The translations under genes and the position numbers were made by a program. From assembly GCF_000014045.1 (NCBI RefSeq), contig NC_008209.1, positions 3,557,001 through 3,621,000 of the forward strand: 64,000 bases of DNA. Reading direction: 5' to 3'. The notes below the pieces were generated by a model that was not told where the DNA came from, did not search any database, and was given only the letters and a program-made list of their open reading frames with translations. Source of the stretch: Roseobacter denitrificans OCh 114. GTDB lineage: Bacteria > Pseudomonadota > Alphaproteobacteria > Rhodobacterales > Rhodobacteraceae. Of the stretch, positions 40,589-64,000 are shown one piece after another. Within the stretch, counting starts at the first letter, position 1, and each line of letters begins with the position of its first letter.

Positions 40589-40761
40589 TTGAACTTCCCA
40601 CGTCAATTTTGGGCAGCATGAAAGAAACATGGAAAAAAAGTCTTAACGCGTTCTTTCAATACAGTTCAAAGTTTACTTATCTTTATGTTCATACGCAGTC
40701 AGGTTAAGTGATTTGTAAACGCACCGGCACTATCCAAATCCTGTAAGGAAAGTGGGCCGGC
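40589..40761. promoter_or_regulatory. AT-rich divergent promoter region of the type I secretion locus
   Basis: A 173-base space between the PA14 gene (-) and the exporter operon (+), clearly AT-richer than most of the window. TGAAAGAA (40619-40626) and TTCTTTCA (40651-40658) are perfect inverted arms 24 bases apart. The exporter ribosome site is AAGGAAAG. Shared control of substrate and exporter is inferred. Confidence 0.5.
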
Positions 40762-42489
40762 ATGACCTCATCAGACGAAGCGACAGTAGCAAAAGAAATT
40801 CGGCCAAGGGTTGGCGCCGCCGTTTTGTCGGCCACTTTTGCTTTAAATATACTCGCGCTCGCCCTGCCGCTTGTTGTTCTGCAGATTTTCGACCGCGTGA
40901 TCCCTTTCCAAGCGACTGAAACGCTCGTCATCCTTTTCTTGGGGATGTGTTTGGTCGCCATACTGGAATTCACATTGAAGTGGGCCCGCGTCGTCCTGTT
41001 AAGCAACGTTGGCGAGGTGTTTGACCAGACGCTGACAACTCGTTTCATGCAAACGAGTCTTAACGCCGATCCGACCGCTTTCGCCAAGGTGACACCGGCT
41101 GCGCATCTGGATCATTTTGGCGCAATTTCCCAAGTCAGAACCTTTTATGCAGGTCAGGGGCGAATTTTAGCGATAGATTTACCTTTCGCTGCACTGTTCG
41201 TTGCGATGATCGGTTTGATCGGTGGCTGGCTGGTTCTTGTTCCTTTGGCCAGTATTGCCTTGCTTATCATGTTCAAAATCGGGCTGAAGCAAGTCCAGTC
41301 CTCGGTTTTTGAGGAACGCAAGAAACTGGATGACAGGCGGTACTCCTTCCTCGTTGAGGTCCTGTCGCAAATCAAGACACTCAAAGCCAATGCGATGGAA
41401 GCCCAGATCAAACGACGCTACGAATTGTTGCAGGATCAGACCGTCGACATAAGTCAGCGCGTTATCAAGATTTCCGGCTTTTCGCAGTCTTTTGGCGCAT
41501 TATTTTCGCAGATGGCCGTGGCGGCAATGGGGTTGTTTGGCGGATACCTGATTATAGTCGGTAATTTAGGTATCGCCGAACTTGCAGCCTGCATGCTTCT
41601 AAACGGCCGCACGATACAACCCATGTTAAAAACACTCAACCTGTGGGTTCAGTCTGAAAACCTATCGTTGTCCCGTTCAAAATTGGACGCAACTTTTGCG
41701 CTTCCCTCCCGTACAACGGCAAATGGAAACGAAACGCCGCTCGCGGGACGCGTTTGTTTTGAAGACGTTGCGCTGAAACACCCGACAAAGGATGGCTATC
41801 TCTTTCAAGGGTTAAACGCCGATATCATGCCCAATCAAAGCCTTGCTCTGCTTGGGAATGCGAGTTCGGGCAAATCCGCGCTTATGCAACTGATACTGGG
41901 CGAGAAAAAACCGACAAAGGGACGCGTGCTTGTCGATGGCGTTCCTGCACATGACATGATTCATGCCAGAGGCACCGGTGGAATTGGTTATGCCGACCAA
42001 CAACCTGTTGTTTTTGCGGGTACGGTCCTCAGTAATATTTCCGCTTTCGGGGATGGCGAAAGCATTGCACGGGCGCTGGAGTTTTCAGAGCGTTTGGGGC
42101 TCGACAAAGCACTTCATCGTTTACCACTTGGCTACAATACGCTGATGCAAGACTGCCCGGCCTTAACGAACAACCAGGCAGCTTTGCTGGGGATTTCTCT
42201 TGTCAGGGCCATGGCGCTACAACCAAAAATCCTGCTTCTCAACGATGTCACTGCGACGATGGATAAAGTTACCCGCGATGGCTTTCTGTCGCTGATCAAG
42301 GACATTCACCAACACACGACACTCATAATCGCAAGTATGGACCAAGAGCTGCTGGAATACGCGGACGCAAGTTTGAATCTCAACCAACCTGAGGCCAAAA
42401 ACATCGATGCTTGGATTGAAGACGGTCATGCCGACAGACGAGCGGCCAAACAATTGATGATCGGGCCCTTACAAGAGCGGAGCGCGTGA
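40762..42489 (+). CDS. Type I secretion-type ABC exporter subunit with degenerate ATPase motifs
   Basis: A 575-aa membrane-ATPase fusion like PrtD/LapB, without a C39-like N-terminal domain. The membrane part spans residues ~15-290. In the ATPase, Walker A is intact (LGNASSGKS) and the Q-loop Gln is present (YADQQPVVF). The signature LSGGQ is replaced by LTNNQ-like sequence, Walker B ends LLLND rather than LLLDE, and the H-loop His is Ser (IIASMDQE). Hydrolysis may be impaired or unusual. It overlaps the next exporter gene, so a heterodimer is likely. Confidence 0.85.
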   Translation: MTSSDEATVAKEIRPRVGAAVLSATFALNILALALPLVVLQIFDRVIPFQATETLVILFLGMCLVAILEFTLKWARVVLLSNVGEVFDQTLTTRFMQTSLNADPTAFAKVTPAAHLDHFGAISQVRTFYAGQGRILAIDLPFAALFVAMIGLIGGWLVLVPLASIALLIMFKIGLKQVQSSVFEERKKLDDRRYSFLVEVLSQIKTLKANAMEAQIKRRYELLQDQTVDISQRVIKISGFSQSFGALFSQMAVAAMGLFGGYLIIVGNLGIAELAACMLLNGRTIQPMLKTLNLWVQSENLSLSRSKLDATFALPSRTTANGNETPLAGRVCFEDVALKHPTKDGYLFQGLNADIMPNQSLALLGNASSGKSALMQLILGEKKPTKGRVLVDGVPAHDMIHARGTGGIGYADQQPVVFAGTVLSNISAFGDGESIARALEFSERLGLDKALHRLPLGYNTLMQDCPALTNNQAALLGISLVRAMALQPKILLLNDVTATMDKVTRDGFLSLIKDIHQHTTLIIASMDQELLEYADASLNLNQPEAKNIDAWIEDGHADRRAAKQLMIGPLQERSA

Positions 42490-44579
42490 TGGACAAAGCT
42501 GTTTCACCCAGCTTCAACCTGCTCAACCAATTGATGTCAGCTGCAGGTTGGCACAGCAGTCAAAATCGGTTGTTTGAAGCTGTGCCACACATGTCCGACG
42601 AACTCACTCCGTTTGACATGGTGAGCACATTTCGAAATCTGGGTGTCCCCACATCTTCGCAACGCTGCAAACTCAATGAAATAGAAGCTGACGATTGCCC
42701 TGCCTTGTTCGTTGATACCCAAGATTGCATGCAAGCAATTCTTGACGCCGACCAAGGCAACCTTCTCGTTTGCCAACTGGGAGACACCGACCCTCGCTGG
42801 GTCAAAGCAAGTAGTTTGGCGGGACGACTGGTCCGCCTTGAGCGGTTCCAAAACGAACAAAACGCGAAAACCAGGTATAGTTTCAGCCAGATTACCAGGC
42901 CCTTCAAAGGTCTGATGCCATGGTTGTTCATTGCCTCGTTCATGTCCAACTTGGCAAGTCTTGCAACACCCTTGCTGATAATGGTGATCTATGACCGTGT
43001 GATCCCGTCAGGCTCCGTTGACCTGATAACGTCCTTGGCTCTGGTAGCCCTCATTCTATTGGCAACCGACGCTGGTTTTCGCCTCATCAGATATCGGGTT
43101 ATCGCTCATATGGGGCGCGAAACCGAACTTGGTCTTGGCCTCGCTTTGTTTCAAAAGATACTTGCTCTGCCGGTATCGCAAATCCAAAAGGCCAGCGTTG
43201 AACAACAATTGGCGAGGTTTAGACAGTTTGAAAGCCTGCGCGATGTATTTACCGGCCAGATTTTGGTGGCGGTACTCGACTTACCCTTCACACTGATTTT
43301 TCTGGCCGTTTTATACATTTTATCACCTCAAATCGCTTTTTTGATCGTAGCGCTGATCATCGTATTCGTTGTCATCACCTGCATTACCTTGCCGATACAA
43401 ACGTCGCGCAACGCCAGTGCGGCAGAGCACAAAGCAGCTTTGCAAAGTTACATGTTTGAAACCGCGCAAAATCAACAAGCAATTCAGCGACTTGGCCTAA
43501 TTGACCACTGGACCAAGCAAGGTGAAGCTATGAACCGGAAAGCTGCGCGCGCAACGCGTCTTGCATCACAACTCCAGTTGGTCACGCAAAACCTTGGCCA
43601 AAGCCTGATGGCAATCGCTGGATTGGGCGCCGTAATTCTTGGCACGCTCAGTGCCATGCAAGGCACTATGTCCTTTGGCGCTTTGATTGCCGTTTTGTCT
43701 TTGGTTTGGAAAGTGCTGACACCGCTACAGGCTCTTTATGCAAACTCAGCGCAGATTGTTTCGTTTCAAAACAGCAAGACGCAAAGTGACCGCGTTTTGA
43801 ACCTGCCCGAAGAGATGGTACGCGGCGTAGCACAGAACCATCAGAAAACACTCAAAGGTCAGATTTCTGTTTCAGGCGTTACACATCGTTACGATTCCGC
43901 AAGCGCGCCGGTCTTGTCACAAGTATCAATGGACATCAAAGCAAACGAGTTTGTCGTGCTCGGTGGCAGCAGCAACAGCGGAAAGACAACTCTGTTGAAC
44001 CTCCTGCAGGGCTTTTATCAACCCAGCTTGGGCTCAATTCAGATTGATGATCTGGATTTAAGGCACATCGCAGTCGATGACTTGCGACGCTCCGTGAGTT
44101 ATTGCCTCTCACCGCCAGAGTTGTTTTACGGCACGATCTATCAGAATTTCAAACTGGCCGCACCGTCTTTAAGCCGGGATGACGTCATTGAGGCCCTTGT
44201 GCAGATGGACCTTCTCGAAGAAATCGACGGATTTACCGATGGCTTGGATACACGGCTATCCGAGGCGTTTCGCAGCACGCTGCCACTGTCAACCCTGCGA
44301 GCTCTGGGGATATCGCGCACGATCGCAAGGGGTGGTTCTGTTTGCATGCTTAATGAACCGTTCGCGGGTTTGGACACAAAGCACCGCGCTGCATTGCTCC
44401 GCACCATGCAAGACCTCAAAGGCTCTCGCACGTTCATCGTTGCGACGCAGGACATCAGTGTTGCCCAGTTGGCAGACCATTACATATTTTTGCAAAACGG
44501 CAGGGTCGTCGCGGATGACCTTGGCAATGCAGGCCTCAAAAAATTCAACGCTTTGTTAAACCGCACGGGAGCAAGTTGA
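42489..44579 (+). CDS. Second type I ABC exporter subunit with C39-like N-terminus and degenerate ATPase motifs
   Basis: A 696-aa protein; the start ATG shares its A with the preceding stop (TGATG), and a GTG one codon earlier is an alternative. Residues ~25-125 resemble the C39-like domain of RTX exporters but lack a catalytic-site Cys context, so it should bind rather than cut substrate. The membrane part follows (~135-420). The ATPase keeps Walker A (GSSNSGKT); the Q-loop Gln, LSGGQ signature (here LPLSTLR) and H-loop His (ATQDIS) are lost. Walker B reads MLNEP, with Asn for Asp but the Glu kept. It probably dimerises with the preceding subunit. Confidence 0.85.
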   Translation: MDKAVSPSFNLLNQLMSAAGWHSSQNRLFEAVPHMSDELTPFDMVSTFRNLGVPTSSQRCKLNEIEADDCPALFVDTQDCMQAILDADQGNLLVCQLGDTDPRWVKASSLAGRLVRLERFQNEQNAKTRYSFSQITRPFKGLMPWLFIASFMSNLASLATPLLIMVIYDRVIPSGSVDLITSLALVALILLATDAGFRLIRYRVIAHMGRETELGLGLALFQKILALPVSQIQKASVEQQLARFRQFESLRDVFTGQILVAVLDLPFTLIFLAVLYILSPQIAFLIVALIIVFVVITCITLPIQTSRNASAAEHKAALQSYMFETAQNQQAIQRLGLIDHWTKQGEAMNRKAARATRLASQLQLVTQNLGQSLMAIAGLGAVILGTLSAMQGTMSFGALIAVLSLVWKVLTPLQALYANSAQIVSFQNSKTQSDRVLNLPEEMVRGVAQNHQKTLKGQISVSGVTHRYDSASAPVLSQVSMDIKANEFVVLGGSSNSGKTTLLNLLQGFYQPSLGSIQIDDLDLRHIAVDDLRRSVSYCLSPPELFYGTIYQNFKLAAPSLSRDDVIEALVQMDLLEEIDGFTDGLDTRLSEAFRSTLPLSTLRALGISRTIARGGSVCMLNEPFAGLDTKHRAALLRTMQDLKGSRTFIVATQDISVAQLADHYIFLQNGRVVADDLGNAGLKKFNALLNRTGAS

Positions 44580-44580
44580 C

Positions 44581-45897
44581 ATGACGCAGACCAAGTTGAA
44601 ACGGGGCAAAAAGGGTGTTTTCGCGAAGTCTGACGCCCGCGCAGCGCGGCGGGGCCCGAAACTGGCCAGCCTGCTGATCCTGACGCTTGTTGGCTTTCTT
44701 GGTGGTTCCTTGTGGATGGCCGCCTCCACAGTCGTTCCTGAGTTGACACGCGCAAGCGGCGCGCTTGTTCCGACCGGAAGATACCACCAGATTCAGGCAC
44801 CAGAAAGCGGGACAGTCGTTTCAGTTCACGTTCACGAAGGACAAGTGGTTCAAACCGGTGACGTTTTGGCTGAGCTATCCTCCGCATCCCTGGACCAACT
44901 CGAACAAAACCTGCGCCAAGAGCTTCTGGCGATTGAAACAAAAGTGAAAAATTTTCAGGCAATAATTGCAGGTGTTACAACCGACAATCCGACGACTGAG
45001 CCCTTGTCCAATCCTGAGATGGAGTTTGCTGATACCCAACTGCAACTCTTTGAGAGCAGACAGCGCGCGCAGAAGGAATTGATAACAAGGCTGGAAGAAA
45101 CGCTCGCAACGCTTGAGCGTGCGCGAAAACTAGCCGAAAAGCGCGTGATCGCCAAAACACTGTCAGTCCAAAAAGATGAAGACCTGTTCAACAAAGGGCT
45201 GACCACTTCGCGCGATCTTGATGCGCAAAAGGACCGACTGGACCAATTGCAGGCGCGCCTCGTTGATGTAGATGTACGACTGTCCCAACTTCAAAAGGAG
45301 GTTAGCCTTTCGCAATCCTCGGTCGTGCAAAACCGCCTGTCTATGGAGGAAAAATACACCGAAAAGCTGTTTGAACTGGAATTGCAACGCGAGGCGCTGA
45401 AGGGTCAATTGGAAACCGTTGTGCAACAACGCGACAAGCTGAAATTACGCTCGCCCGCAAACGGCGTTCTACACGCAATTGGCTTCCCAAATCCGGGCGA
45501 AATCGTGAATGTTGGGGACGTACTTTTTGAACTTCTTCCAACTCAGCAAAGCCTTGTTGCAGAGATTGAAGTGAACCCATCTGACATCGGTCATGTTTCA
45601 ACGGGTGATCCGGTTGCATTGAAGTTCGACACCTTCGATCCGAGACGATACGGGCAAGTGGAGGGCGAAATCATAAGTATCTCACCTAATTCGGTGATGG
45701 ATAGCGATACGGGTCAAGAACACTTTCGTGCCACTGTTGCCTTGGGCAACGCCTCGATAGGTGAAGGTGTCTGGCAAAGGGATTTGAAATCCGGCATGAC
45801 TGCAACGGCCGAAATTGTGACTGATGAACGAACGGTATTGGCATATCTGCTAAAACCAATCAGCCGTTCGCTGGAAAACGCATTTGGGGAGAGGTAG
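44581..45897 (+). CDS. HlyD-family membrane fusion protein
   Basis: A 438-aa periplasmic adaptor of type I secretion. A basic, cytosolic N-terminus (~1-32) precedes one membrane helix (~33-52). The lipoyl half-motif ESGTVVSVHVHEGQVV is followed by a long alpha-hairpin (~95-295), the second lipoyl half (LRSPANGVLHAIGF) and a beta-barrel region. The gene begins one base after the second ABC gene. No outer-membrane TolC partner is encoded nearby, so a channel from elsewhere must serve. Confidence 0.92.
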   Translation: MTQTKLKRGKKGVFAKSDARAARRGPKLASLLILTLVGFLGGSLWMAASTVVPELTRASGALVPTGRYHQIQAPESGTVVSVHVHEGQVVQTGDVLAELSSASLDQLEQNLRQELLAIETKVKNFQAIIAGVTTDNPTTEPLSNPEMEFADTQLQLFESRQRAQKELITRLEETLATLERARKLAEKRVIAKTLSVQKDEDLFNKGLTTSRDLDAQKDRLDQLQARLVDVDVRLSQLQKEVSLSQSSVVQNRLSMEEKYTEKLFELELQREALKGQLETVVQQRDKLKLRSPANGVLHAIGFPNPGEIVNVGDVLFELLPTQQSLVAEIEVNPSDIGHVSTGDPVALKFDTFDPRRYGQVEGEIISISPNSVMDSDTGQEHFRATVALGNASIGEGVWQRDLKSGMTATAEIVTDERTVLAYLLKPISRSLENAFGER

Positions 45898-50913: not shown

Positions 50914-53900
50914 TCAGGCCAAAAGGGCTGCGAGAAACAGCGACAGGTTGGCGCCGTCACTGCCGTCGGGGTCTGCAACCTCCGCTGTCTGCGCAATCAC
51001 AGCAGCGTCTGTCGGCCCGTCCCAGTTTGGTTCTAACCGGCCAAGCCCGCCCTGTTCGACAAGGTCCCGCACCAATGAAAATGCCGCAGCCGGGCGCTGC
51101 AAGCGGATGAAATCGGACGATGGCAGCCCGCTGGCGTCTCTGGGCGAAATGCCAAGACGTGCCGCCATCGACTGGATACGCTGATTTCTGACCTTGGCGC
51201 TATAGCCCTGCGCGATGGCGTGATCGACAGAGGCGACCGCCGCGCTGCCATCAAAACTGACGCCGCGCCTGCGCAGATGCGTGGCACCGGTCAGCGAATA
51301 GACATCATCCACAACGACAGTCGTACCCTGCAACCGTGCCGCCCGTCCCGGAAAGGCCCCCGGGTGAAAGGCGACGACACGATCGGCGGCCACGCTTTGT
51401 AACGCCAGAAGTGCTTCGTTGCGCAATTGGATCGCGGCGCGCACAAATGGCGGATCGACAAAATCGGTCTCGCGCGGCGTGCACAGTATGACCTTGAGCC
51501 GTGGTTGCACAGCCAGACGGTCCGCCAGTATCTGGATCAGGTCGACCGTGACCGCGCCACTGCCAGCACCGGTATGGACCGTGCGGGCCAGGCCTGCGGT
51601 TTCCACATAGACCAGCTCCTGCGCCTCGTGAAAGGCGCGTGCCAAAGACCACAGCGCATCGCGCGCGCCATGGACCGACAGCTCATATTCGCGGCGCAAC
51701 TCGTTCAGCAAGCGGTTGCCGTTGGTGACATCCACCGTGGGGGCCGGCAGGCCCAAAGCAGCGGCCACATCATTGATCACCGTTTGCAAATCAAGCGGGG
51801 TGGCTGAGTTGAGCGGGTTGCCATCAGGCAACAGCGACAGTTCTGGCGTTTCAGCCACCGCCGCGATGGAGTGCAGCAAAACGCCCGATGATGTGGCGCC
51901 CGCTGGCGCCGCACCTGCCCGTACCGGCGGGTTCATGTTATCCCCGCCCGACATCGCCAGCCAGCCCGGTGCCTGCCCGACAGGAGGTCCACCGGGCAAG
52001 GGAATGAACGGCTGCACGCGGCGCACTGCGTGGCGTGCGAGGTCATAGCCAAGCGCCCCCTCGACCCGAACGGCGCTGCTGTGGGTATCGGGTCCGGGCG
52101 GGTTGCCCGGGTTGCCCTGCGCATGGCTGGCTGACATCGTGTCGCGCGACCAGGGTGCAGCACTCAGCACCCCGTCCCAGTCAAGCCCGGCGCTTACGTT
52201 GGCCGAACCGATACCACTGACGACGATGCCTTCGAGACGCCCCATGGTCGGCAGCCTCGGCCCGGTGCGCGGCACCGTTTCGGACGCAAGCGCACGCGCG
52301 GCATCCACAGGCGTGCCCGCGGCGCCGTCATCCGGCCCGTCATCCGTGCCGAAAATCGGAACCGGGGCTACCGATTTCAGATTGTCGGACAGCCCACCCA
52401 TACGGTCGAGCGCGGGCGCGAAAACATCGGGGGGCAAGGCGGCAGGCCCCGGCGCAATCAGCAAGGTGCGCGCAGCAAACAGGCGGCGGTTCTGGCCACG
52501 CGGTGTGACCACCAGATCAAAGACCAGCGTTGCCGGATCGGGTTTGGGATCCCCTGCGCCTAACCCAAGCGGATTATGCACCCGGATGAGCGTCGGCTGG
52601 GTTGCCACGGCGATTGCCGCCCCGCCATCGCCTCGCTTGAAAGATGGTGTCTCTCCGATAGCGGGAATGGAAACGAACTGCTGGGAATAGAGCCTGACGG
52701 CGCTGCCATCGGGCACCGCGTCGGCCGGGATCTGCACGATCACGTCTTCATCAGCGCTCCATGTCGCCGTGGCGCCCACGATTGGCGCCGGGTTCGGCCC
52801 GAACATGCCAGCGCCCGCCGGGGTGGGAAACGCGGGCCAGCGGGCCGCGGCACCGGGCGCAGCAGGCGTTGGGACCTCATCTTCGATGATCGGTGCGACG
52901 ACAAACATGAGCGGGTCGCCGGGGGCCCCCTCGACCCGCGCCAGCACAGCATCCGCACGTGCCATCAGGTCGGGGCCATCGACCACATAGTCAATCACAA
53001 CTTCGCTGCGCACCTGCGGTTTCAGATCGGAGGGCATGTCGCCATCCTCGCCCGGCACGCCCGCAACGGCGCTTGTGGTGCGGTTGCCCCGCAGATGCCA
53101 ATCCAGATCAACCGCATAGGCGCGCAGGAATTGGCGCGGCAACGATATGCCACCCGGCAGCGCAGGCTGCGTCAGGGGCCCTGCCCCCATGGTGCCACCG
53201 GTTGCCCATCCCAACCGCATGCGGCTTGCGGCATTCGCCCCCGTGGCCGCAACCGTTTCAGCCGCGGCCAAAGTCATCAGACCCGACGCATTAGGCACAC
53301 CTGTCGACGTGGTATCTGCCGCCTGTTTTTCGATGCCAACGTCACCCAGATGCCCCACAAAGGGTGATCCGTGCAAATCCACCACCTGCACCAGAACGCC
53401 CGTGCCCGCGCCCAACCCGGTCGCAATCGTCCCAACGCCGCCCGGCCCGCCCGTGCCCGCGCCATTTGAGAAATCGAGGGCCGGAAAAGTCGTGATCAGA
53501 TCATCAAACAATGCTGCGATCGAAATCGGGTCAATGATCAAGCCGCGTGCGTCGTGAAAACTCATGGGTTCCGTGCGACCAAGACTCTCACCCGGCTCAT
53601 AGGTTTGCGGCGACCGGTCCGGCGTCGGTACCGCGCCTGTAAAGACCAGCGTCTCCGGCACGGGGCGGTGGTGCGGCGCAGGGGCCACGGCATAGCGTGC
53701 CATCAGGCGGCTGAGGCGCTCAACGGCTTGAGGATGCAAACGAAATGCCGCAACCGGCCCGGCAATCCCCGCCCCCGTGACATCACGAAATTCATGCCCC
53801 TGATCCAGATACTCAAGCGTGCCGCGAAATGGGGCCAGCGCGTTGCCCGATGGCGTCAATCGCAGCGTGTTTGCATCAAAGGCCGGGTTGGCGCTGCCCC

Positions 53901-54009
53901 AGACATTGGACAGGCGCGCCATGGTCAGGCCCAGAGCATCCAGCCCATTATCCTGCAGGGCCTGTGCAGCGGCCTGCGGTGTCAGCGTAAAGACGTTAAG
54001 CTGTGTCAT
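50914..54009 (-). CDS. Giant protein of unknown function with a phospholipase-D-like C-terminal fold
   Basis: A 1031-aa protein with no signal peptide or membrane segment. I start at the ATG eight bases after GGGAG; a GTG at 54018 would overlap the previous stop. Residues 1-~760 are Gly/Pro/Ala-rich and unknown. Residues ~775-970 follow the PLD half-domain order: ALWSLARAFHEAQELVYVETAG, LKVILCTPRE, then VVVDDVYSLTGATHLRRRG (compare IVDDxxxxIGSANLNxRS). In that alignment the HxK pair is replaced (Gln and Thr at the sites), so the fold is probably non-catalytic. It is the last gene of the run. Confidence 0.7.
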   Translation of the reverse strand: MTQLNVFTLTPQAAAQALQDNGLDALGLTMARLSNVWGSANPAFDANTLRLTPSGNALAPFRGTLEYLDQGHEFRDVTGAGIAGPVAAFRLHPQAVERLSRLMARYAVAPAPHHRPVPETLVFTGAVPTPDRSPQTYEPGESLGRTEPMSFHDARGLIIDPISIAALFDDLITTFPALDFSNGAGTGGPGGVGTIATGLGAGTGVLVQVVDLHGSPFVGHLGDVGIEKQAADTTSTGVPNASGLMTLAAAETVAATGANAASRMRLGWATGGTMGAGPLTQPALPGGISLPRQFLRAYAVDLDWHLRGNRTTSAVAGVPGEDGDMPSDLKPQVRSEVVIDYVVDGPDLMARADAVLARVEGAPGDPLMFVVAPIIEDEVPTPAAPGAAARWPAFPTPAGAGMFGPNPAPIVGATATWSADEDVIVQIPADAVPDGSAVRLYSQQFVSIPAIGETPSFKRGDGGAAIAVATQPTLIRVHNPLGLGAGDPKPDPATLVFDLVVTPRGQNRRLFAARTLLIAPGPAALPPDVFAPALDRMGGLSDNLKSVAPVPIFGTDDGPDDGAAGTPVDAARALASETVPRTGPRLPTMGRLEGIVVSGIGSANVSAGLDWDGVLSAAPWSRDTMSASHAQGNPGNPPGPDTHSSAVRVEGALGYDLARHAVRRVQPFIPLPGGPPVGQAPGWLAMSGGDNMNPPVRAGAAPAGATSSGVLLHSIAAVAETPELSLLPDGNPLNSATPLDLQTVINDVAAALGLPAPTVDVTNGNRLLNELRREYELSVHGARDALWSLARAFHEAQELVYVETAGLARTVHTGAGSGAVTVDLIQILADRLAVQPRLKVILCTPRETDFVDPPFVRAAIQLRNEALLALQSVAADRVVAFHPGAFPGRAARLQGTTVVVDDVYSLTGATHLRRRGVSFDGSAAVASVDHAIAQGYSAKVRNQRIQSMAARLGISPRDASGLPSSDFIRLQRPAAAFSLVRDLVEQGGLGRLEPNWDGPTDAAVIAQTAEVADPDGSDGANLSLFLAALLA

Positions 54010-54014
54010 TAAGC

Positions 54015-57000
54015 TCACTCCCGATCTGAACTTGAGACGCGCCGCCCATCCGGCATGATGATCTCAAAGGTGATCGCCCGCAGGTCAGCACGCGCGAATA
54101 CGGTGATGCCCGTGCGTCCCCCGATGCTCTGACGGCTGGCGGAAAAAAGGGGCGATTTCTTGGCTGTGCTTGCCGGAACACCGCCCACAGGCACGTCATC
54201 AAGGGCTGCTTCATAGACAAGGTTCTTGCCGTCCGTGATGAACTGCGACTTGGGCCTGTTGGAGCCCAGATCAATGATCGGACCGGGGCGCGGTTCAAAC
54301 CGCCGTATGATCCGGCCTTCGGAGATGTCCCGCTCGCTGCCGGAGCGGCGGCCAAACCGGCCAATCTCCTCTGTCCGGCCCCGCAAGGCGCGCAGCCGGT
54401 CCGGCCCGAAAACACCGCCCTTTTGCGACAGTGGTCTGATTGTGATCCGAACCCTGTATTCCAGCGGCCCGGTGATGGGCGCATTTGTCGTGACCGAATA
54501 TACCGTCCCACGGCCCGCAATGCTGAAGCTGTCGACATCGCTCAGGCTCGGGGGCGGAATTATGGAGCCCTGCGCAAACCGGGCCATATGCTCGGTCACC
54601 CGGCCAAGCGGGTCCGTGAGTCTCAGCGTGATGCTGCCACCGGGCATTGCGGCGGGGCGGCGAATAAAGAGGCGATAGTTGCGCGCCTGACCATCCGGTT
54701 CACGCCAGAACCCGGTCTGCGTTGTTTCAGGGGTTTCCGAAACCAGTTCCAATGGCGTCGCGCCCGGCAGTTTCTGGCCCGGAGTGCGCGGGTCGTCAGC
54801 AGGTTCCGCCGGGACGGTTAAGAAATGCGGCTGTTCCTGCCCCTCAAAGCGCACATCAACCGAAATCGTATGAGATCCCAGTTCGGTGGCATCAACCGGC
54901 GCGGTGGAGGTAAATGAAACCAATATATCGCCAAGGTTCCCGCCGCCGGGCCAGATCAGCACCGGTGGCGTCATCGGCGGTGGGCCAGCAGGCGGGATCA
55001 CAACCGACACGGCGGGCGATGGTCGGCCGCGGCCCTTGCGCACGCCGCGTTGCGGATCATCCAACCCCCAGGCGATGGCGCGATACCACTGCGGTTTCCA
55101 CGACCCGGCCGGCGCATCCGTGCCGGTCACATCCGTGATCCATGTTTCCGATCCATTTGTGTCGGACCCGGCCACCCAGTCGGGAGTGCTGCCTGTCAGC
55201 GACGCCAGCGGCGGCCCCATACTATCCAGGCGGCGCGCCGCGTCCGCGACACGCGTGCGATAAAGATCAATACGGCCCGGTCGCGCCCCGGACGCGGGGC
55301 GGGTTTCAACACGGATGCGCGCAGCAAACCCGCCCGGTCCTTCCACTGGCAGGGCTTCAATGGTGGGGGGCGCGGGCGTTGCGATGCGCGGGGCCACGAA
55401 GGGGATCAGCGCCTTGTCCGCATCAGGCCCGCTGGGCCAGGGGCCTTCAATGCCGCCGCTGCTGACGGGGAGGACGACAAACAGGTGAATCGCCTGCGAG
55501 CCGCGCGGCAAAGCCACATCCAGATTGGTGCCCGTCAGCAGTTTCTTGTTGACCCGGTTGAAATCCCTGCGGTCCGGCTTGTTTGCAAATGCCCCCTTCA
55601 GCGTGGCGAGCCGGTCGCTCAGAGAGACACCGGACAAAGCCTCTGGCAGGTTCCGGCTCGCCAGCATTCTGGTTTCTGTGCTTTGATAGAGGATGTAGCC
55701 CTCCGCCCCCGGCACGCTTTGCCATTCGACAATGGCGTGGCATTCGCCCTTGGCATCCGGCAGGCTGGCAAGACGCACGATATCAATGACTTGCGTGGGC
55801 CGCGCGCGCGGATCCGACGCATAGGTCAGCTTGCTGCGGGGGCCATAGCCCCCTGCCCGCCCCGGTGCGACTGCCTCGCGCAGACGCGCCTGAAGCGCCA
55901 GCCCCACATGCGGTGTTGCAGCGTAGTCCAGCGAAAAGGCAGGGATGGTCACCCGGTAGCGCCGCGCGTGACCCTGCGTGGCAAAACCCGGCGTCGCCAC
56001 TTCGACACTGCCTTGCGCATCAAGGTTCACCACGCTCGCAACACCGTCCAACCCGGGCACGCCTGGATCAACCAGGGCCCCAGTATCACCCGAAAAGGTG
56101 ATATGCACATTCTGAACCGCCCCGCCGATGGATTTTTGCAGACCGGCCCCGGGCAAACCGCCCGGCGGTTCGCTATGCCGTGTGGGGGCTGCGAAAAGAC
56201 GACCGCGAAAGTCAATGCGCGCGACCGATCGCACGCGCCAGTCGACGACGAATTCTACAACAAGATCCGCCGGGCATACCGTGCCGCTGCCGGTATCAAT
56301 CGGCCTGAGTTCAGCGGATACGATGTTGACCGGGTCAGGCGGCGGCTGTGTGCTGGAAAATGCGCGCGTGGCCCATGGGCTCCAGATCCCAAAGAGATTT
56401 TGGGTCGCGATCCCATATTCCGCGCTGACCGCACCGGCGGCATTGGGGATCAAAAACCCGGTATCGGACGCGGATTGGCGCGGGTATTCCGGGTCTTTGC
56501 GGTTTTCATTGTTTCCGATTGGCATGTGCCCCTTGCCCGAAGGTCGCCGCTCCATCAGCGGCGTTGCGGGGTCCGTCGTGCCGCTCTCTGCGCGACTGAA
56601 GGCAAAACTTGAAACGGGATTCAGGTTATCAAGCGGCAGGCGCTCCCAACTGGCGCGGCTGGTCGCAATCCAGGGTCCATCCGGGACGGCGGGCCGCTGG
56701 TGCGACAGGAAATGCACACGCATATCAGCCGCCGTCAGAGGGCGCATCACCCGGCGGGGTCGCGGGATAATCGCAGCCAATTCGCGCGGTTCTCCCTTGC
56801 CGTTCAGGTCATTCGCCCACAGACCCGTGATCATGTAGTCGTAATCAGCCATGTCGGAGGAGCCAAGGAAGCTGCGGTCACCAAACACAATCGGGTCAAG
56901 ATTGACATAGGGAAACCCGGTGCCGAACCCCATCAGCACCGATTGCATCGGATCGGTGCCCACGGCCATCTGCAACAGCTTTATCGGCGATACATTCGCC

Positions 57001-58001
57001 TCGCCCTTTTCCGCGGGCATGGCCTCACCGCTCAGGTTTTCCGGTGGGTTTATCACATGCGTCTCAAGCACATTCACCTGTTGGTTGGGCGGGGCCTGCA
57101 ATGCCTTGTGCAGCATCTGCAACAGCGTCTTTTGCGCATCATCAATCATGCCCGCCGGATCCGGCATTTCCCAAACCGGCCCTTTGGCCCCGCTTGGAAA
57201 GGTCGGATACCACCCGAACGGGTTCAGGCCGCGCGAAAACCGCTGTTTCGCAGCCTCCATGGCGGACAACTCGGCGCCCACAAGACCCTGTTCCTTGCCA
57301 TGTGCCTGTCCGCCAAGGTCAGCGAATTTGTCCGGGTCCACCGGCAGGCCGACGGTTTCGATCAACTCCCACCCTTCGATCTCATTGGCATGGGATACAG
57401 GTTCGCCGATGATGCTGACCTCCTGACCGTCCGCACCGCTGATCAGCAGCGCGGTGATATGCGGGGCGTAGAACTGATAGCGCCGCTGGCCATTTGCGGG
57501 GATGTTCAGGCTCTCAAAGCCGAGAATGTTTTCAAAGCCGACACCATTTGCGAGCGGCGCGATGTTGACCGTCAGGGGGGGGCCGTTGCTCTTGATCGTG
57601 ACGTTGACCGACATCATCGGCTCAAAGAACTGATGCACCGTGCCCAGCGGCGGCAAGTCCAGTTTTTGCGCCATTGCCGCAACCGGTTTGGACAACAGCG
57701 GAAAGGCGATCCGCCGCCAAACCTTGAACGGCTCGGAAGGCAGGCCAACAGATGGGTTGAGCTGCCAGCGCAGAAAGACCGAAAAGACGTGATTGCCAAA
57801 ATCATTGAGGTCGATGCCCTGCGTTTCGCGCCGGGCCGTTCCGCGCAAGGCGTCCGCCCCGGCGGCGGTATCCCCTGTGGGACCAAATGGCGCCGTCACA
57901 ACATCATTCTCATCAGCAAAGGGTCGCAAAACAGAGCTTGCCGTGATCATCGCGCCCTGACCGCGGAACCAATATGGGAAAAATGTCCGTTTCACCGCCA
58001 T
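54015..58001 (-). CDS. Giant protein of unknown function with fibronectin-III-like stretch
   Basis: A 1328-aa soluble protein with no signal peptide. The first ~500 residues are unrecognised and include aromatic segments such as MAVKRTFFPYWFRGQGAM and GLNPFGWYPTFPSGAKGPVWE. Around residue 750-770 (55690-55760) VEWQSVPGAEGYILYQST resembles a fibronectin-III strand pair. The C-terminal half is Pro-rich and beta-rich. The gene begins three bases after the upstream giant's stop and ends five bases before the next ATG, so all three are one transcript and probably form one structure. Confidence 0.7.
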   Translation of the reverse strand: MAVKRTFFPYWFRGQGAMITASSVLRPFADENDVVTAPFGPTGDTAAGADALRGTARRETQGIDLNDFGNHVFSVFLRWQLNPSVGLPSEPFKVWRRIAFPLLSKPVAAMAQKLDLPPLGTVHQFFEPMMSVNVTIKSNGPPLTVNIAPLANGVGFENILGFESLNIPANGQRRYQFYAPHITALLISGADGQEVSIIGEPVSHANEIEGWELIETVGLPVDPDKFADLGGQAHGKEQGLVGAELSAMEAAKQRFSRGLNPFGWYPTFPSGAKGPVWEMPDPAGMIDDAQKTLLQMLHKALQAPPNQQVNVLETHVINPPENLSGEAMPAEKGEANVSPIKLLQMAVGTDPMQSVLMGFGTGFPYVNLDPIVFGDRSFLGSSDMADYDYMITGLWANDLNGKGEPRELAAIIPRPRRVMRPLTAADMRVHFLSHQRPAVPDGPWIATSRASWERLPLDNLNPVSSFAFSRAESGTTDPATPLMERRPSGKGHMPIGNNENRKDPEYPRQSASDTGFLIPNAAGAVSAEYGIATQNLFGIWSPWATRAFSSTQPPPDPVNIVSAELRPIDTGSGTVCPADLVVEFVVDWRVRSVARIDFRGRLFAAPTRHSEPPGGLPGAGLQKSIGGAVQNVHITFSGDTGALVDPGVPGLDGVASVVNLDAQGSVEVATPGFATQGHARRYRVTIPAFSLDYAATPHVGLALQARLREAVAPGRAGGYGPRSKLTYASDPRARPTQVIDIVRLASLPDAKGECHAIVEWQSVPGAEGYILYQSTETRMLASRNLPEALSGVSLSDRLATLKGAFANKPDRRDFNRVNKKLLTGTNLDVALPRGSQAIHLFVVLPVSSGGIEGPWPSGPDADKALIPFVAPRIATPAPPTIEALPVEGPGGFAARIRVETRPASGARPGRIDLYRTRVADAARRLDSMGPPLASLTGSTPDWVAGSDTNGSETWITDVTGTDAPAGSWKPQWYRAIAWGLDDPQRGVRKGRGRPSPAVSVVIPPAGPPPMTPPVLIWPGGGNLGDILVSFTSTAPVDATELGSHTISVDVRFEGQEQPHFLTVPAEPADDPRTPGQKLPGATPLELVSETPETTQTGFWREPDGQARNYRLFIRRPAAMPGGSITLRLTDPLGRVTEHMARFAQGSIIPPPSLSDVDSFSIAGRGTVYSVTTNAPITGPLEYRVRITIRPLSQKGGVFGPDRLRALRGRTEEIGRFGRRSGSERDISEGRIIRRFEPRPGPIIDLGSNRPKSQFITDGKNLVYEAALDDVPVGGVPASTAKKSPLFSASRQSIGGRTGITVFARADLRAITFEIIMPDGRRVSSSDRE

Positions 58002-58004
58002 CCC

Positions 58005-61000
58005 CTACTCTTCTTCCCAGGGCGCGCGGGCCAGGTCCGTTGCAATGATCTCGATCTCGACGTTCCCCGAAAACCCTTCATCAAGATAGGGTTCGTCAAA
58101 GGCCTTGCGGATCATATCCATGCGCAGGCTCTTGCCACGCGACCCGGCCTTGAGCGTGACAAGCGCGCGCTGTGCCCCCGGCGCAAACAATATCTTGTCC
58201 ACGATGTCATCCGATGCCGCATTTTCGGCGATGGATAACCACGGCGCAGGTTCAAGACGCCAGCGGGTGGCCGCAATGCCGTCGGGGTCCTCTTCGGTGA
58301 CTTCCTGCGGGATCGGACGCATCCGGTGCATCGGCTCGCTGGCATCCAGCAGCAAGGCGGCTGGCTGCGGATCGGCGGCCGGGTTCGCCTGCTCCCAAAA
58401 GACGATGACACGGGCCGCACCGGGCACGTCCATCGGTTCGAGACCCGCACCGATCAGTTCCTCATCCAGTTCCGGCCCCATGGTGCTCAGAAGTTCCTGA
58501 CCGGCGAGGATGCTGTCCAGCCTGCGCCCGGCAAAACGCGGATCATTCCCGATCGCCTGCAACGCGCCGCTTTGCACAAAGCGATGCTCGTAAAGGGTGG
58601 CCTGAAAATCACTGGCAAAGTCTTCCATCTGGCCGAACTGACCGGTGGAGAAGTTCAACCGGTAGACCCGATCACCGACCGTTTCGGCATCCGCGCCGAT
58701 GTCGACCGCCTCGATATCAATGACATAGTCGGTATAGGGATCAAGCGGGATCGGCAGGGTCAGCATCGAATGACGCACCCGGTTTTCGTCAATGGGCACA
58801 CAAGGACCGCTCTCGCCAAGCACGTCTTCGACCACCGCTTCAAACGGGGAAAGCACATGGGCTTTGACGTATTCCAGCGTGCCTGCATCAATAGGAACGG
58901 GATGCGGCGCGCCCGGTTCATCGACCTGCCGGAACGACGCGGCCTTGAGCCTGACGCGCAACTCCTTGCCATAGGCTGCAAAGAGCTGATCGACCGAATT
59001 CGTCGCAAAGACAAAGCGCGGCGCATCAAGGCCGAAGACATGTGCCTCCCCCTCCGTTGGCAAGGTGCACAGGATCCACGGATCAAGGCGCTTCGGGGCC
59101 GCGCGGTCTGTTTTGAACCAGAAGGTTGCTTCCTGATCCGCACCGTCGCTCTCATCGCCTTCTTCATCAAGGATGCGCACATCGGCGCGACATGTGACAC
59201 GGTAAAGCGCGTCCGGGAACAGCAATGCAACATCCGCGCTCGCGCCGCTGACCAGGTCTTCGATCACCTGACGGTCTTTTTCGATCTCCGTGTTGTCGTA
59301 GGCCTCGCGTCGTGCTTCGCTGAGGCGGGTCAGTTCAATCGCGCCCACATAATAGGGCCGTCCCTCTTGCTCAAAACGCTGCGCCTGTTTTTCGTCAAGA
59401 TAAAGCACACCGATCCTGAAGCGTTCCGTGCCCTCGGGCGGCGAAAGCTCCACACAAACGGGCTGGCGCGGGCTGAGGCGCATCTGTCCATAAAGCACCG
59501 TGTGATAGAGATCCTCAAACCACGGACCATTCATATCCATCCAGTTCGCAGGCAGGCTGGTGACAGTCAGCAAATCCGACACCCGCACCGGGCGCATCCC
59601 CAGAATATCCCCATCCGCATCAAGGAAGTGGATCATCAGACCCCGCCCGGTGCCTTGCTGATCATCATTCAGAAGACCACGATTGACCCACATCAGCACA
59701 TGACCCGACAGGATGGCGCCGCTGTCCACTTCGATCACGTCGGACAGGGGGCCGTGTTTGAGGCCAAGGGCCGCAAGCTGATCTGCGATCTCGTCCGAAC
59801 GGCTGCGATCTCCGAAAACGACCGGCGCGCCCGTGTCCCAAAGCGGCGAGGCCAGCACGCGGCCCGGACACTTGGGTTCATCGACCTGTCCACCCCCCGG
59901 CACCGTTGTGCCATGCGGGCCCGCAGCACTCGCCCCAGCCAGCACGCCCAGCAGGGCGCTGCGCTGGATTTCAACGCCACGCGTGACCCGGCGGATGGCT
60001 TCGCCAAGCTCCAGATGCTCCGCCGAAAGCTCATCGACCGGGCTGATCGTACCAAAAGATCCGGCGATCGCGCGGTTGACCTTTTCGCGCTCCGCCGTGC
60101 GTTTCAGCTTGGTGTTCAACGTTGCCTTGGCCGTCATCTTGTCACCAAGACTCTTGTTCAACGTACCTGCCCCCAAGGACATGTTCCGCGTCAGCGTCCG
60201 CATCTTCAACGCGGAGATGCCGGTTTCATCTATCTTGTTGAGCGTGCCCGTCAGATCGCGCCCTGAGGTGACAATCGCACCCGTCAGATCACCGCCCCTG
60301 ATGCCTGTCGTCAGGCGGCCAGTTTCAAAGCCGCCGCGATTTAGGTTTCCGTCGCGGTCCTCGGGCGCGCAATCAACCAAGCCCCCTTCGACGACCGCGG
60401 GGACGATGCCGCGCATCTGATCGAGCGCGAAATCACCCGAACGCCATGTTTCATGCACATGCAGTTCAACGTCCGGATCACGCGAGCGCTTGGCATCAAC
60501 AGGATCGGGCCATGCGGTGCCTTTAAGATCCCAACCTGTGGCCGAGGGGCCGAGACGTTCGTCCGAAAAGGTCCACAGAACCGGAGCCGCAGGGGCTGCG
60601 GGCTCACATACCTTGCCCCATCTTTCGCGGATCGTTTCCTCAAGAATTTCCGTGCGTTCCAGCGCTTTGGGTGCCGGGTTCGGCACCCAGTTCAGCAAGG
60701 ACAGATGCGTGGTCAGGTTTTCACCATCGGGCGGTTCAAGCGTCCACCATGTTGACGGCGTATTTCCGGCCATGACCGCATCGGTCTCCCCGACCCGTTC
60801 CAGCGTGACCTCGGTCATTGTAAAGCGGTAGGCGAAATCACCCCGCGCGATAAAACCACCCGCGGGGGCGCCGGTGTTGCCACCCGGCGTTTCACCCAGC
60901 GGAGTGATGCCCCCGTCCAATGCGGGCATCGCAAGGCTGATCACCGGGATCGCATCAATCGGCACGACGGGGATGTCCGCATCCGCAGGGGCGCTGGTGC

Positions 61001-64000
61001 CGCGCGGCATGTCTCCGATTTTGCTGTCGATGCCACGATCCACCCCGGTGCCTTCGGCAAGTGCGGGCGTGCGGCTGACCAAGACGGCCCCCGCATAAAG
61101 ATCGGGGGGCGGGGGCAGTATCTTGGAGTCTTCGCCGATGTGGAAATCGACGCAGCCCTTGATGGAAAAGAAGAAGAGGTCCAGCTCACCGCAAACCTCA
61201 CCATCAATGCGGCTGACCTGCGTGCCATCCGCCCGCTCCCCGACCTGCGCAGACAGAGCCGCAGAGGCCGACAGGCTGATGATGAACAGCTTCAACTCGC
61301 CCCGGATATAGAGTAGCCCGCCCACGTAAAATGGCTGGAACCCGATGATCGCGTTAAAGCCCGCCGTCACCTTGAGGTAGAGGTTGATCGAGGTGTTCCC
61401 CCAGATGATCGACACCTCAAGCCCGGCGGCGATCCCAAAGCCATTGACCTGGCTGAGCGCGGGCAGATTGTTGCCCGGCGGCTGATAGCTGGGGATACCA
61501 TGCCCGGAGAACATCACATAACCGGAGCCGTCAAAGGCCCCGAGGATGGACGCACGGATCGGACCCGGCAACGGGTTGTCCTGCAAGTCCTTGCCCGCAA
61601 AACTGCCGAGATACACGTGCCAGAATTTGCCATCCCTGAGGTTGAAGAACGCCTCAATCGGGATTTTGATTTCCACCAGCGGGTCGATGGTGAAGTCAAT
61701 GGAAATGCCGATGGTCAGCGTCCCGCGCCCGAAATCCAGATCAATGACACAGAGGAACGTGCCTTCGGCGGTCTTGTCCTTGAGCGCTGGCAGCACCGCC
61801 AGCAGATTGGCCTTGACCACCAGCAGGACACGCGGCCCGGGCAATTCCAGCAGGAACATGCCCTTGACGTTAAAGATGATCGGACTGCCCATCGTGCCCA
61901 GCGTGATCCCCACCCCAAAGGCCCAACTGTCGAGGTTGGTTTTCCAGGCCCGTAAATTCGTAGGATCCCCATTGGCGCGGTTTTTCAGCCATTCCAGCGC
62001 CGGGGTGAGCGAGGTGATCCCGTCTTCGTCACGCGCGTAATGCATCGCAAAAAGACCGACAAAACCGTAAATGCCAAAGCCCGATTGCGCCAGCGGGATG
62101 GCGACAGGCAGTTCGACCTCAAGCGCGATGGCCACACCTGTTGCCGGGCCGCCCGCAGATTCCGGGATCTGCGCAATCGCGATTTGCGCCGCAATCCGCA
62201 TCTTGACGGGGATCAGGCGGACATCAATGCCGCCCTTGATCTCGGTGCCGGCATCCCCGTTGTTGAACTCCAGATAGCCCGATCCCTCCAGCACACCCGG
62301 CACTTTCAACCCCGCGCCAAAGGCGGTCAGTTCCGGCGGTCCCAGCGGATCAATCGGCATGCGCACCCGCGCGCGATCCACCGACACCACGCCCAGATCA
62401 ATGGCAAAGCCGAGGTCAATTTCAAAATTCAGCGGGTTTGTCCGTGCAATCCGCGCGCCCAGCACCTGTAAAATCTGCCCCAGAGGGTCAGCCACGCGGA
62501 TGGCGCCGGGGCCGGACACATCAATGGAATAGCCTTTGGAACTGTCGAAAACGGGTCTCAGGTCGAACTGACCGCCCCCGCCGGGCGGCACACCAAAGCT
62601 CAGCCCAATGGCTTTGTAGCGCACGGCGAGCGGTGTATCGCGCGGGATTTCCAGCAGCGGGTCGCCATCGCCAAACGCGATATTGACGGATACGGCCGTC
62701 TCCACATCGAACAGGAAACTCATCAGCCAGCGATCCCCCTGCCGCCGGAACGCGCCTTCCCCGCCGAACAGGATCACCCGTTCGATGTTGAAAAACCCCG
62801 CCTGTGCCAGCCCCGTTGCAACACCCACCGCGGCAGCCGACGCCACAAGAGGTGCGATGCTGCCATCCGAGCCCTGCGCTGGCGTGCTCTCCGCCAGCAA
62901 GGGCGTGAAAATCGTGGTCATGCCCAGCAGATCGCGCCCGAAGTTCTTGGGCTTCAGGGTTTGCCCCGGCAGTTGCCCGGTCATCAAAAGCCCGTCTTTA
63001 TCCGCCGGGTCCGCGCCGATATAAAGCTTGACCTCATCGGTCTGGCTTGCCGGGTCGGTCTGGTAGAGAAACAGGAAATCGGTAATACCGTCCGCCGGAT
63101 TATTTCCAATCCCGCGAATATCATCCGGCAGTTCGGTCGCCCCGCCGTTTTGCAGCGTGCTTTCCAGACCGGTCTGGAAATCAATCTTGCCCGAAAGCTC
63201 AAGTGCGACGAACTGGTTGCGGATTATGCGCACTTTCAGACGCGCCGAATGGAACCAATCCGGGGTGGCGGGATCATTGGGCGGTGTATCGGGCACCACG
63301 GGGGGCGGCAATGGCTCGGGCGCTGCCGGCCTGCGCACGGTGCCGGTGATGACCTCACCCGGCAGGTTGACCGAAAAGCCGCTGATAGTCGCTTTCCAGT
63401 ATTGCGATCTATTGGTCGGACCTTGGGTTTTCCAGACGCTGTCGCGCCAACTGGCGGTGAAGGTCTCGCCCGAGGGTGCGTTGGCGCCGGTGAAACTGGG
63501 TGGAAAACGATCCTCGATCAAGGCGCGCATCCCTTCTGCACGCCGTTGGCTCAGCTTCCAGTTATACTGCGCCTTGGAATCGTCCCCGTCCCAACTGGCC
63601 GTGCCGGTGATGGTGACATCCTTGGGATTGATGCGCGACAGAATATCCGCGTAGGCGACATCAAAGGCCCGCGCCCCCGGTTGCCAATCTGATGTTTTGC
63701 TCGCGGTCAGTGCTTCCTTGTCACGGATATGCCCCGGCACGCGCGCATAATCGGTGTAATCCACCTTGGGTGGCGTATCAAAACGGAAAAACCCGACGAG
63801 CGATGTCACCGCATCGTCCGGCGTGCGCGCCTCGATCGCGCGGGACTGACCGCCCGTCACTTCGATATCCACCGTCACGCCGACCGTGGGCGGGCCGCCG
63901 TCAATGCGCCACTCGGTTGCGGGTGGCACGCTGAACCCCGCCAGACTGACCCTGACGCCGCCCGTCTCGCGGTTGTCGCTGAGCAAGGCCAGCGGCGGTG
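58005..64000 (-). CDS. Giant protein (>1993 aa), 5' end outside window; OmpA-like and DUF6603-like regions
   Basis: The reading frame is open to the window edge, so the N-terminus is missing. Near the visible start (about 63800-63500) FFRFDTP, VTITGTASWDGDD and LSQRRAEGMRALIED follow the OmpA C-terminal (peptidoglycan-binding) order, though HTD is replaced by TAS. A long middle region (about 62300-61100) of amphipathic beta strands, with FGIYGFVGLFAMHY, FLLELPGPRVLLVVKANLL and FYVGGLLYIRGELKLF, resembles the DUF6603 type as I recall it. The C-terminal third is beta-rich with many Pro/Asp. No membrane helices are certain. Function unknown. Confidence 0.7.
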   Translation of the reverse strand, partial: PPLALLSDNRETGGVRVSLAGFSVPPATEWRIDGGPPTVGVTVDIEVTGGQSRAIEARTPDDAVTSLVGFFRFDTPPKVDYTDYARVPGHIRDKEALTASKTSDWQPGARAFDVAYADILSRINPKDVTITGTASWDGDDSKAQYNWKLSQRRAEGMRALIEDRFPPSFTGANAPSGETFTASWRDSVWKTQGPTNRSQYWKATISGFSVNLPGEVITGTVRRPAAPEPLPPPVVPDTPPNDPATPDWFHSARLKVRIIRNQFVALELSGKIDFQTGLESTLQNGGATELPDDIRGIGNNPADGITDFLFLYQTDPASQTDEVKLYIGADPADKDGLLMTGQLPGQTLKPKNFGRDLLGMTTIFTPLLAESTPAQGSDGSIAPLVASAAAVGVATGLAQAGFFNIERVILFGGEGAFRRQGDRWLMSFLFDVETAVSVNIAFGDGDPLLEIPRDTPLAVRYKAIGLSFGVPPGGGGQFDLRPVFDSSKGYSIDVSGPGAIRVADPLGQILQVLGARIARTNPLNFEIDLGFAIDLGVVSVDRARVRMPIDPLGPPELTAFGAGLKVPGVLEGSGYLEFNNGDAGTEIKGGIDVRLIPVKMRIAAQIAIAQIPESAGGPATGVAIALEVELPVAIPLAQSGFGIYGFVGLFAMHYARDEDGITSLTPALEWLKNRANGDPTNLRAWKTNLDSWAFGVGITLGTMGSPIIFNVKGMFLLELPGPRVLLVVKANLLAVLPALKDKTAEGTFLCVIDLDFGRGTLTIGISIDFTIDPLVEIKIPIEAFFNLRDGKFWHVYLGSFAGKDLQDNPLPGPIRASILGAFDGSGYVMFSGHGIPSYQPPGNNLPALSQVNGFGIAAGLEVSIIWGNTSINLYLKVTAGFNAIIGFQPFYVGGLLYIRGELKLFIISLSASAALSAQVGERADGTQVSRIDGEVCGELDLFFFSIKGCVDFHIGEDSKILPPPPDLYAGAVLVSRTPALAEGTGVDRGIDSKIGDMPRGTSAPADADIPVVPIDAIPVISLAMPALDGGITPLGETPGGNTGAPAGGFIARGDFAYRFTMTEVTLERVGETDAVMAGNTPSTWWTLEPPDGENLTTHLSLLNWVPNPAPKALERTEILEETIRERWGKVCEPAAPAAPVLWTFSDERLGPSATGWDLKGTAWPDPVDAKRSRDPDVELHVHETWRSGDFALDQMRGIVPAVVEGGLVDCAPEDRDGNLNRGGFETGRLTTGIRGGDLTGAIVTSGRDLTGTLNKIDETGISALKMRTLTRNMSLGAGTLNKSLGDKMTAKATLNTKLKRTAEREKVNRAIAGSFGTISPVDELSAEHLELGEAIRRVTRGVEIQRSALLGVLAGASAAGPHGTTVPGGGQVDEPKCPGRVLASPLWDTGAPVVFGDRSRSDEIADQLAALGLKHGPLSDVIEVDSGAILSGHVLMWVNRGLLNDDQQGTGRGLMIHFLDADGDILGMRPVRVSDLLTVTSLPANWMDMNGPWFEDLYHTVLYGQMRLSPRQPVCVELSPPEGTERFRIGVLYLDEKQAQRFEQEGRPYYVGAIELTRLSEARREAYDNTEIEKDRQVIEDLVSGASADVALLFPDALYRVTCRADVRILDEEGDESDGADQEATFWFKTDRAAPKRLDPWILCTLPTEGEAHVFGLDAPRFVFATNSVDQLFAAYGKELRVRLKAASFRQVDEPGAPHPVPIDAGTLEYVKAHVLSPFEAVVEDVLGESGPCVPIDENRVRHSMLTLPIPLDPYTDYVIDIEAVDIGADAETVGDRVYRLNFSTGQFGQMEDFASDFQATLYEHRFVQSGALQAIGNDPRFAGRRLDSILAGQELLSTMGPELDEELIGAGLEPMDVPGAARVIVFWEQANPAADPQPAALLLDASEPMHRMRPIPQEVTEEDPDGIAATRWRLEPAPWLSIAENAASDDIVDKILFAPGAQRALVTLKAGSRGKSLRMDMIRKAFDEPYLDEGFSGNVEIEIIATDLARAPWEEE

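Follow-up and report, generated by a model that had tools for sequence, protein, structure and literature searches.

Three neighbouring giant genes, referred to here as A, B and C, occupy the right end of a 64,000-nucleotide stretch of Roseobacter denitrificans OCh 114 (the window; contig NC_008209.1, positions 3,557,001 to 3,621,000), where their open frames all lie on the minus strand. On balance we favour the view that A, B and C constitute one compact, co-inherited and apparently horizontally spread module, the products of which would form one large beta-rich complex, and it is quite probable that the proteins of the module bind one another. The module, known here from sequence, can be considered undescribed: no described system was found to which it could be assigned, and the literature searched, outside which most subscription papers lay, held no mention of the family DUF6603 (PF20248), to which A shows similarity, nor of the domain combination.

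Gene order and co-inheritance of A, B and C

Genome contigs were scanned for the A core with a two-row alignment (A and its Paracoccus salsus relative) and two peptide patterns, which yielded 41 loci; since the scan began from A, A is present in all of them by selection. Iterated profiles were built separately from A, B and C with position ignored (first inclusion 1e-10, later 1e-6), so that a row, once included, necessarily scores high. After exclusion of L052 and L073, whose contigs end inside A, 39 testable loci were left, including L057 and L082 with broken A and B frames. B directly follows A on the same strand in 39/39 of them, and C directly follows B in 25. A plasmid search started from B and C matched two records, both with A beside B, namely plasmid pRtrCIAT899c of Rhizobium tropici with A-B-C in order and a P. 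aminophilus plasmid record with A-B. The A core is single-copy in all 25 module-bearing genomes searched. Open homologues of the frames occur in many genera; the hosts include proteobacteria, Bacteroidota and Actinomycetota, and in some of them the module is carried on plasmids. A short form, consisting of an A of ~1750 amino acids (aa) without the OmpA-like motif described below, a B of ~1030 aa and no adjoining C, was observed in Streptomyces, Mesorhizobium and Frankia (L076, L077, L078 and L080). The broken A and B frames belong to the records of Methylobacillus glycogenes (L057:7467-18407) and Piscinibacter aquaticus (L082:2-10892) and reflect either decay or sequencing error.

The ratio of nonsynonymous to synonymous substitution rates (dN/dS) for A, B and C was 0.05, 0.09 and 0.06 against L043 (dS above 2), 0.07, 0.10 and 0.07 against L042, and 0.17, 0.19 and 0.21 against L044, values that are rough because dS was 1.5-2.5 in these comparisons. 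As dN/dS is well below 1, the three frames behave as real genes under purifying selection. Pairwise distances were closely correlated between A and B (0.982, 38 loci), A and C (0.991, 21 loci) and B and C (0.984, 21 loci), with L023, L033, L057 and L082 omitted, and this matched divergence shows joint inheritance, not contact. Constant order, adjacency of A and B and matched divergence give good support to the preliminary description of this DNA, made from the sequence alone, in that it had taken the run for what is likely one system.

A quick maximum-likelihood tree was built from 39 A proteins, without the duplicates L023 and L033 and the broken L082; on it the phylum labels need four changes where the minimum is two. 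Demequina (Actinomycetota) groups with Sphingomonas and Roseococcus, Streptomyces and Frankia group with Mesorhizobium, and Thauera groups with Paracoccus; the A of the window is nearest to that of Tateyamaria (83% at best). The tree suggests that the module has apparently passed horizontally between phyla, phylum mixing on a tree being no proof of transfer. Some 14 kb of coding DNA, the extent of the module, is kept under purifying selection and recurs across these distantly related hosts, and the cost of keeping it argues for a function worth having.

Predicted folds of the three proteins

The central part of A is predicted to form an amphipathic antiparallel beta-meander. DUF6603 matched the full protein in Pfam above the cut-off (2.1e-7, 30.4 bits against 27), in line with the preliminary assignment, and scored 33.8 bits for residues 500-1500, the match being partial (profile positions 20-260 of 502). 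The same family, the function of which is unknown, matched 14 of 39 A members at E 0.01, and a profile comparison with a classical DUF6603 cluster gave 96% probability over 387 columns. Against membership in DUF6603 counts a whole-genome family search for PF20248, which scored no match in this genome. An AlphaFold2 model of residues ~860-1420 consists of a run of long antiparallel strands with a porin-like topology; 25 strands in this stretch have at least 8 residues, 19 of which present one clearly more hydrophobic face, and Foldseek/VIA matched the sheet to outer-membrane barrels.

The OmpA-like domain of A, noted in the preliminary description as well, was supported by a profile search against the PDB, in which the best match was an OmpA-family chain (E 4.9e-6); the Pfam OmpA match of A is below the cut-off, with six of the 39 A members giving a match at E 0.01. 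Asp and Arg of OmpA-like domains bind diaminopimelate. In the clade of the window the usual Asp is Ser, with Arg and the N..LS..RRA half kept, so the peptidoglycan-binding residue pair is incomplete in the A of the window; the Asp is kept in the Halomonas clade, and in the alignment the motif was not seen in the short A proteins. Unlike OmpA C-terminal-like domains, it also sits as an insert in a giant protein that shows no visible signal peptide.

For neither B nor C did the curated libraries that were searched yield a usable match. No match to B was found in Pfam or NCBIfam, and its fold matches, which point to tandem beta-sandwiches, are modest and do not separate Fn3 from immunoglobulin (Ig)-like domains; the Fn3-like fold named in the preliminary description may be a sandwich of either kind. 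C had no NCBIfam match and a weak, chance-level Pfam match. Residues ~768-997 of C align with the phospholipase D (PLD) superfamily, and profile and motif alignment support the PLD-like fold proposed earlier. Neither His nor Lys of the HxKxxxxD motif is kept in any of the 23 C rows covering it, whereas both are kept in 5/5 comparison PLDs, four of which were chosen by likeness to C. Four proteins that bear HxK are matched by the C profile with E between 5e-12 and 2e-16, values that refer to a set of a few frames. Two results count against a PLD fold: a PDB profile search with C gave a PLD match at E 2.7 only, and Pfam PLD did not match in 15 C rows. Besides lacking His and Lys, C differs from the PLD superfamily in its large N-terminal part without known family. 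In our view the catalytic residues of the PLD fold of C have been lost, and the fold probably serves in binding.

Distant relatives of the three genes adjoin in the order B-C-A on a Mycetohabitans endofungorum plasmid (L083:8201-21222), where the profile of B matched a protein of 1322 aa (1.3e-12, with the strongest similarity over the end of the protein), that of C a PLD of 463 aa with intact motif (1.4e-14) and that of A a DUF6603 protein of 2496 aa (1.6e-56), all E-values referring to a set of 45 sequences. The locus resembles the present module in that distant relatives of A and B adjoin a PLD gene, and differs from it in gene order and in its small, motif-bearing PLD. Ordinary PLD-motif proteins score against C as well as the Mycetohabitans PLD does, and taken by themselves the matches of B and of the PLD might be unspecific; their weight comes from the adjoining A relative. 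The arrangement suggests that a PLD enzyme may have been the original partner, its chemistry being lost in the present lineage. Transposase genes flank the Mycetohabitans locus on both sides.

A candidate beta-rich assembly and its alternatives

Best supported is the view that A and B, joined by C where it occurs, work together, most probably as a single complex. In the complex that we envisage, A would be the core, a long amphipathic antiparallel beta-sheet of porin- or apoB-like topology with an OmpA-like insert; B would be its constant partner, reaching out with tandem Fn3- or Ig-like sandwiches; and C would be an accessory part whose dead PLD fold reads a ligand. Lipid binding is a concrete hypothesis, because a dead phospholipase fold adjoins a giant amphipathic sheet: the A sheet might hold lipid or rest on a membrane while the PLD domain recognises a head group, which to us is the likeliest mechanism but one that we put forward only tentatively. 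More speculative is its fullest form, a new lipid-handling or membrane-wrapping assembly in which A would be a lipid-carrying sheet like the apoB belt, B would supply Fn3-like arms and C a head-group reader, with the cassette exchanged between phyla; this we think unlikely.

Several points weigh against the proposed complex. The complex is predicted from gene order, sequence changes and modelled folds, and since linked genes share ancestry, matched divergence alone proves no interaction. A lipid role is suggested by amphipathicity and topology, features that a soluble sandwich or solenoid would equally present. Both AlphaFold2 models are middling (predicted template modelling score 0.45), and most barrel matches of A have a root-mean-square deviation (rmsd) of ~11-14 Å, with one FimD row at 6.2 Å. 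C is missing beside B in 14/39 loci, comprising seven of the Cellulomonas-Phycicoccus-Nakamurella branch (L060, L062-L066 and L079), three of the Sphingomonas-Roseococcus-Demequina branch (L070, L071 and L074) and the four with a short A; a C gene elsewhere in these genomes is possible. C is therefore not essential, and the minimal set is A and B.

The antiparallel meander of long strands is shared with outer-membrane beta-barrels (SlpA of Deinococcus, PapC/FimD, LptD and OprD), and A might instead be a barrel of this kind or a surface protein resembling an S-layer (comparable to Deinococcus SlpA or PapC/LptD), which its OmpA-like domain would tie to peptidoglycan and to which B and C would add surface arms. 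We hold this to be improbable. Unlike these barrels, A shows no signal peptide at its N-terminus by eye or hydropathy (no dedicated predictor was used), its rmsd values to them are mostly high, and aromatic residues are not enriched at its strand ends (1032/2000 shuffles reach the observed value, in a test that used the middling model and covered 25 of its 30 strands there); the Asp of the peptidoglycan motif is Ser in the clade of the window, and the module is found in Actinomycetota too, which lack a classical outer membrane. For the cell-envelope or particle assembly suggested in the preliminary description, neither a signal peptide (by eye) nor a constant neighbour in the flanks covered was seen.

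Three giant proteins with binding-type domains and no visible signal peptide, in hosts that include soil, root-nodule and endofungal bacteria, could also make up a large complex that is secreted or released and acts on other cells or on surfaces, as a tripartite toxin-like or adhesive particle; its export would need no N-terminal signal peptide and might use, for example, a Type 1 exporter. Consistent with this, a Type 1-like exporter set with an HlyD partner lies 5 kb downstream of C in this genome. The exporter genes, which lie outside the flank clustering described below, were tested separately: the ATP-binding cassette (ABC) genes match in the flanks of 5/41 and 6/41 loci and the HlyD gene in those of 2/41 (L071 and L078, as exporter and HlyD pairs), and the PA14 gene beside the exporter matches in none of the 41. 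Among 25 module-bearing genomes, an HlyD match at E 1e-12 lies within 20 kb of A only in this genome and in G588 (L078), the L071 match being weaker and below this limit, and seven genomes have no HlyD match at E 1e-12 at all. A Type 1 exporter is at most an occasional neighbour of the module, not a constant partner. The absence of the PLD catalytic residues, and of any toxin, RHS or effector family match for the three proteins, also argues against a secreted complex, which we judge to have a poor chance of being correct.

An undescribed anti-phage or anti-plasmid defence module would fit a compact, sporadic cassette that has apparently crossed phyla and is plasmid-borne in some hosts, and PLD folds occur in defence enzymes. 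PADLOC (library of 2023), however, matched 0 families for A, B and C, Pfam revealed in them no domain of the nuclease, ATPase or kinase type, and the PLD residues are absent, which makes this explanation very improbable. Least credible is a phage-tail-like or other viral particle remnant, which the row of structural-looking giant genes might recall: there were 0 matches to A in 50,697 phage records, 0 of 49 candidate stretches were confirmed when viral contigs were searched with the A1 patterns (both searches covering A only), and PHROGs gave E 0.12 or worse. We retain the co-inherited module with a predicted beta-rich complex as the preferred reading.

The R. denitrificans locus, its flanks and other DUF6603 clusters

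Open frames and junction sequence confirm that three giant proteins are encoded on a single strand, separated by gaps of 3 bases (A/B) and 5 bases (B/C, counted from the ATG of C), as the preliminary description had it (Table 1). Its sizes were right for B and C, while its figure of >1993 aa for A reflected truncation by the window. Contrary to its statement that the run continues beyond the window, the flank beyond 64000 contains the start of A, followed by a ribokinase gene, and no further giant genes. As a ribokinase, ~380 bases upstream of A, and not another giant gene stands there, the run ends with A. For C, a GTG at 54018 is an alternative start (1034 aa, 50914-54018), but the ATG is more likely since GGGAG precedes it.

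Table 1. Positions of the module genes and their predicted features in the window
Feature	Window position	Strand	Residues or length	Remarks
Gene A	58005-65378 (in-window part 58005..64000)	-	2457 aa	First of the run; begins outside the window
OmpA-like domain of A	63294..63698	-	~561-695	Profile against PDB and alignment
Amphipathic antiparallel beta-meander of A	61122..62804	-	~859-1419	Predicted; contains DUF6603 match 980-1223
Gene B	54015..58001	-	1328 aa	
Tandem Fn3- or Ig-like sandwiches of B	54567..55799	-	~735-1145	Predicted; limits transferred by eye from L056 homologue
Gene C	50914..54009	-	1031 aa	Likely ATG start
Phospholipase-D-like region of C	51028..51717	-	~768-997	Profile and motif alignment
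Second HxKxxxxD motif site of C	51304..51333	-	896-905	His and Lys absent

The in-window part of the run has a GC content of 62.7%, compared with 57.0% in the rest of the window. Beyond the ribokinase and in the same orientation follow RbsD/FucU and a sugar ABC ATPase, and a convergent MscS-type channel gene lies downstream of C. Ribokinase and MscS are not neighbours in five relatives with a close ribokinase match, indicating that the site here is not common to them. The Type 1 secretion-like set (window 38018-45897) comprises two ABC exporters and an HlyD protein, beside an 870-aa protein with two PA14 matches.

Flank frames of at least 100 aa were clustered over the 41 loci together with the flanks of this genome from window position 50001 on (288 frames). 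The widest group covers six locus ids, two of which (L002 and L003) are the same gene, and its member here is an ABC ATPase; no other gene widely common to the flanks of the 41 loci, mostly upstream ones, was seen. The flanks are lopsided, with a median of 7.5 kb upstream of A and at least 1.5 kb after the last module gene in only 14/41 loci, and where a locus is rich in G+C, the frame picker can err in its choice of strand. The regions searched revealed no sheath, phage, defence or Type 1 secretion system with a constant link to the module.

PF20248 occurs in 9/196 genomes of the order. Classical DUF6603 genes lie in clusters of another kind, with partners of ~700 and 1300 aa, and none of the remaining genes there aligns with A, B or C. 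A type of cluster different from the module, marked by a strong DUF6603 protein of up to ~3280 aa, was observed at L024, L030, L031, L040/L041 and L025-L029, in genomes G075, G012, G014, G051, G052, G061, G126, G190 and G123; its partners are ~700, 340, 1270 and 1110 aa long in four genomes, and in L025 a kelch protein comes after it.
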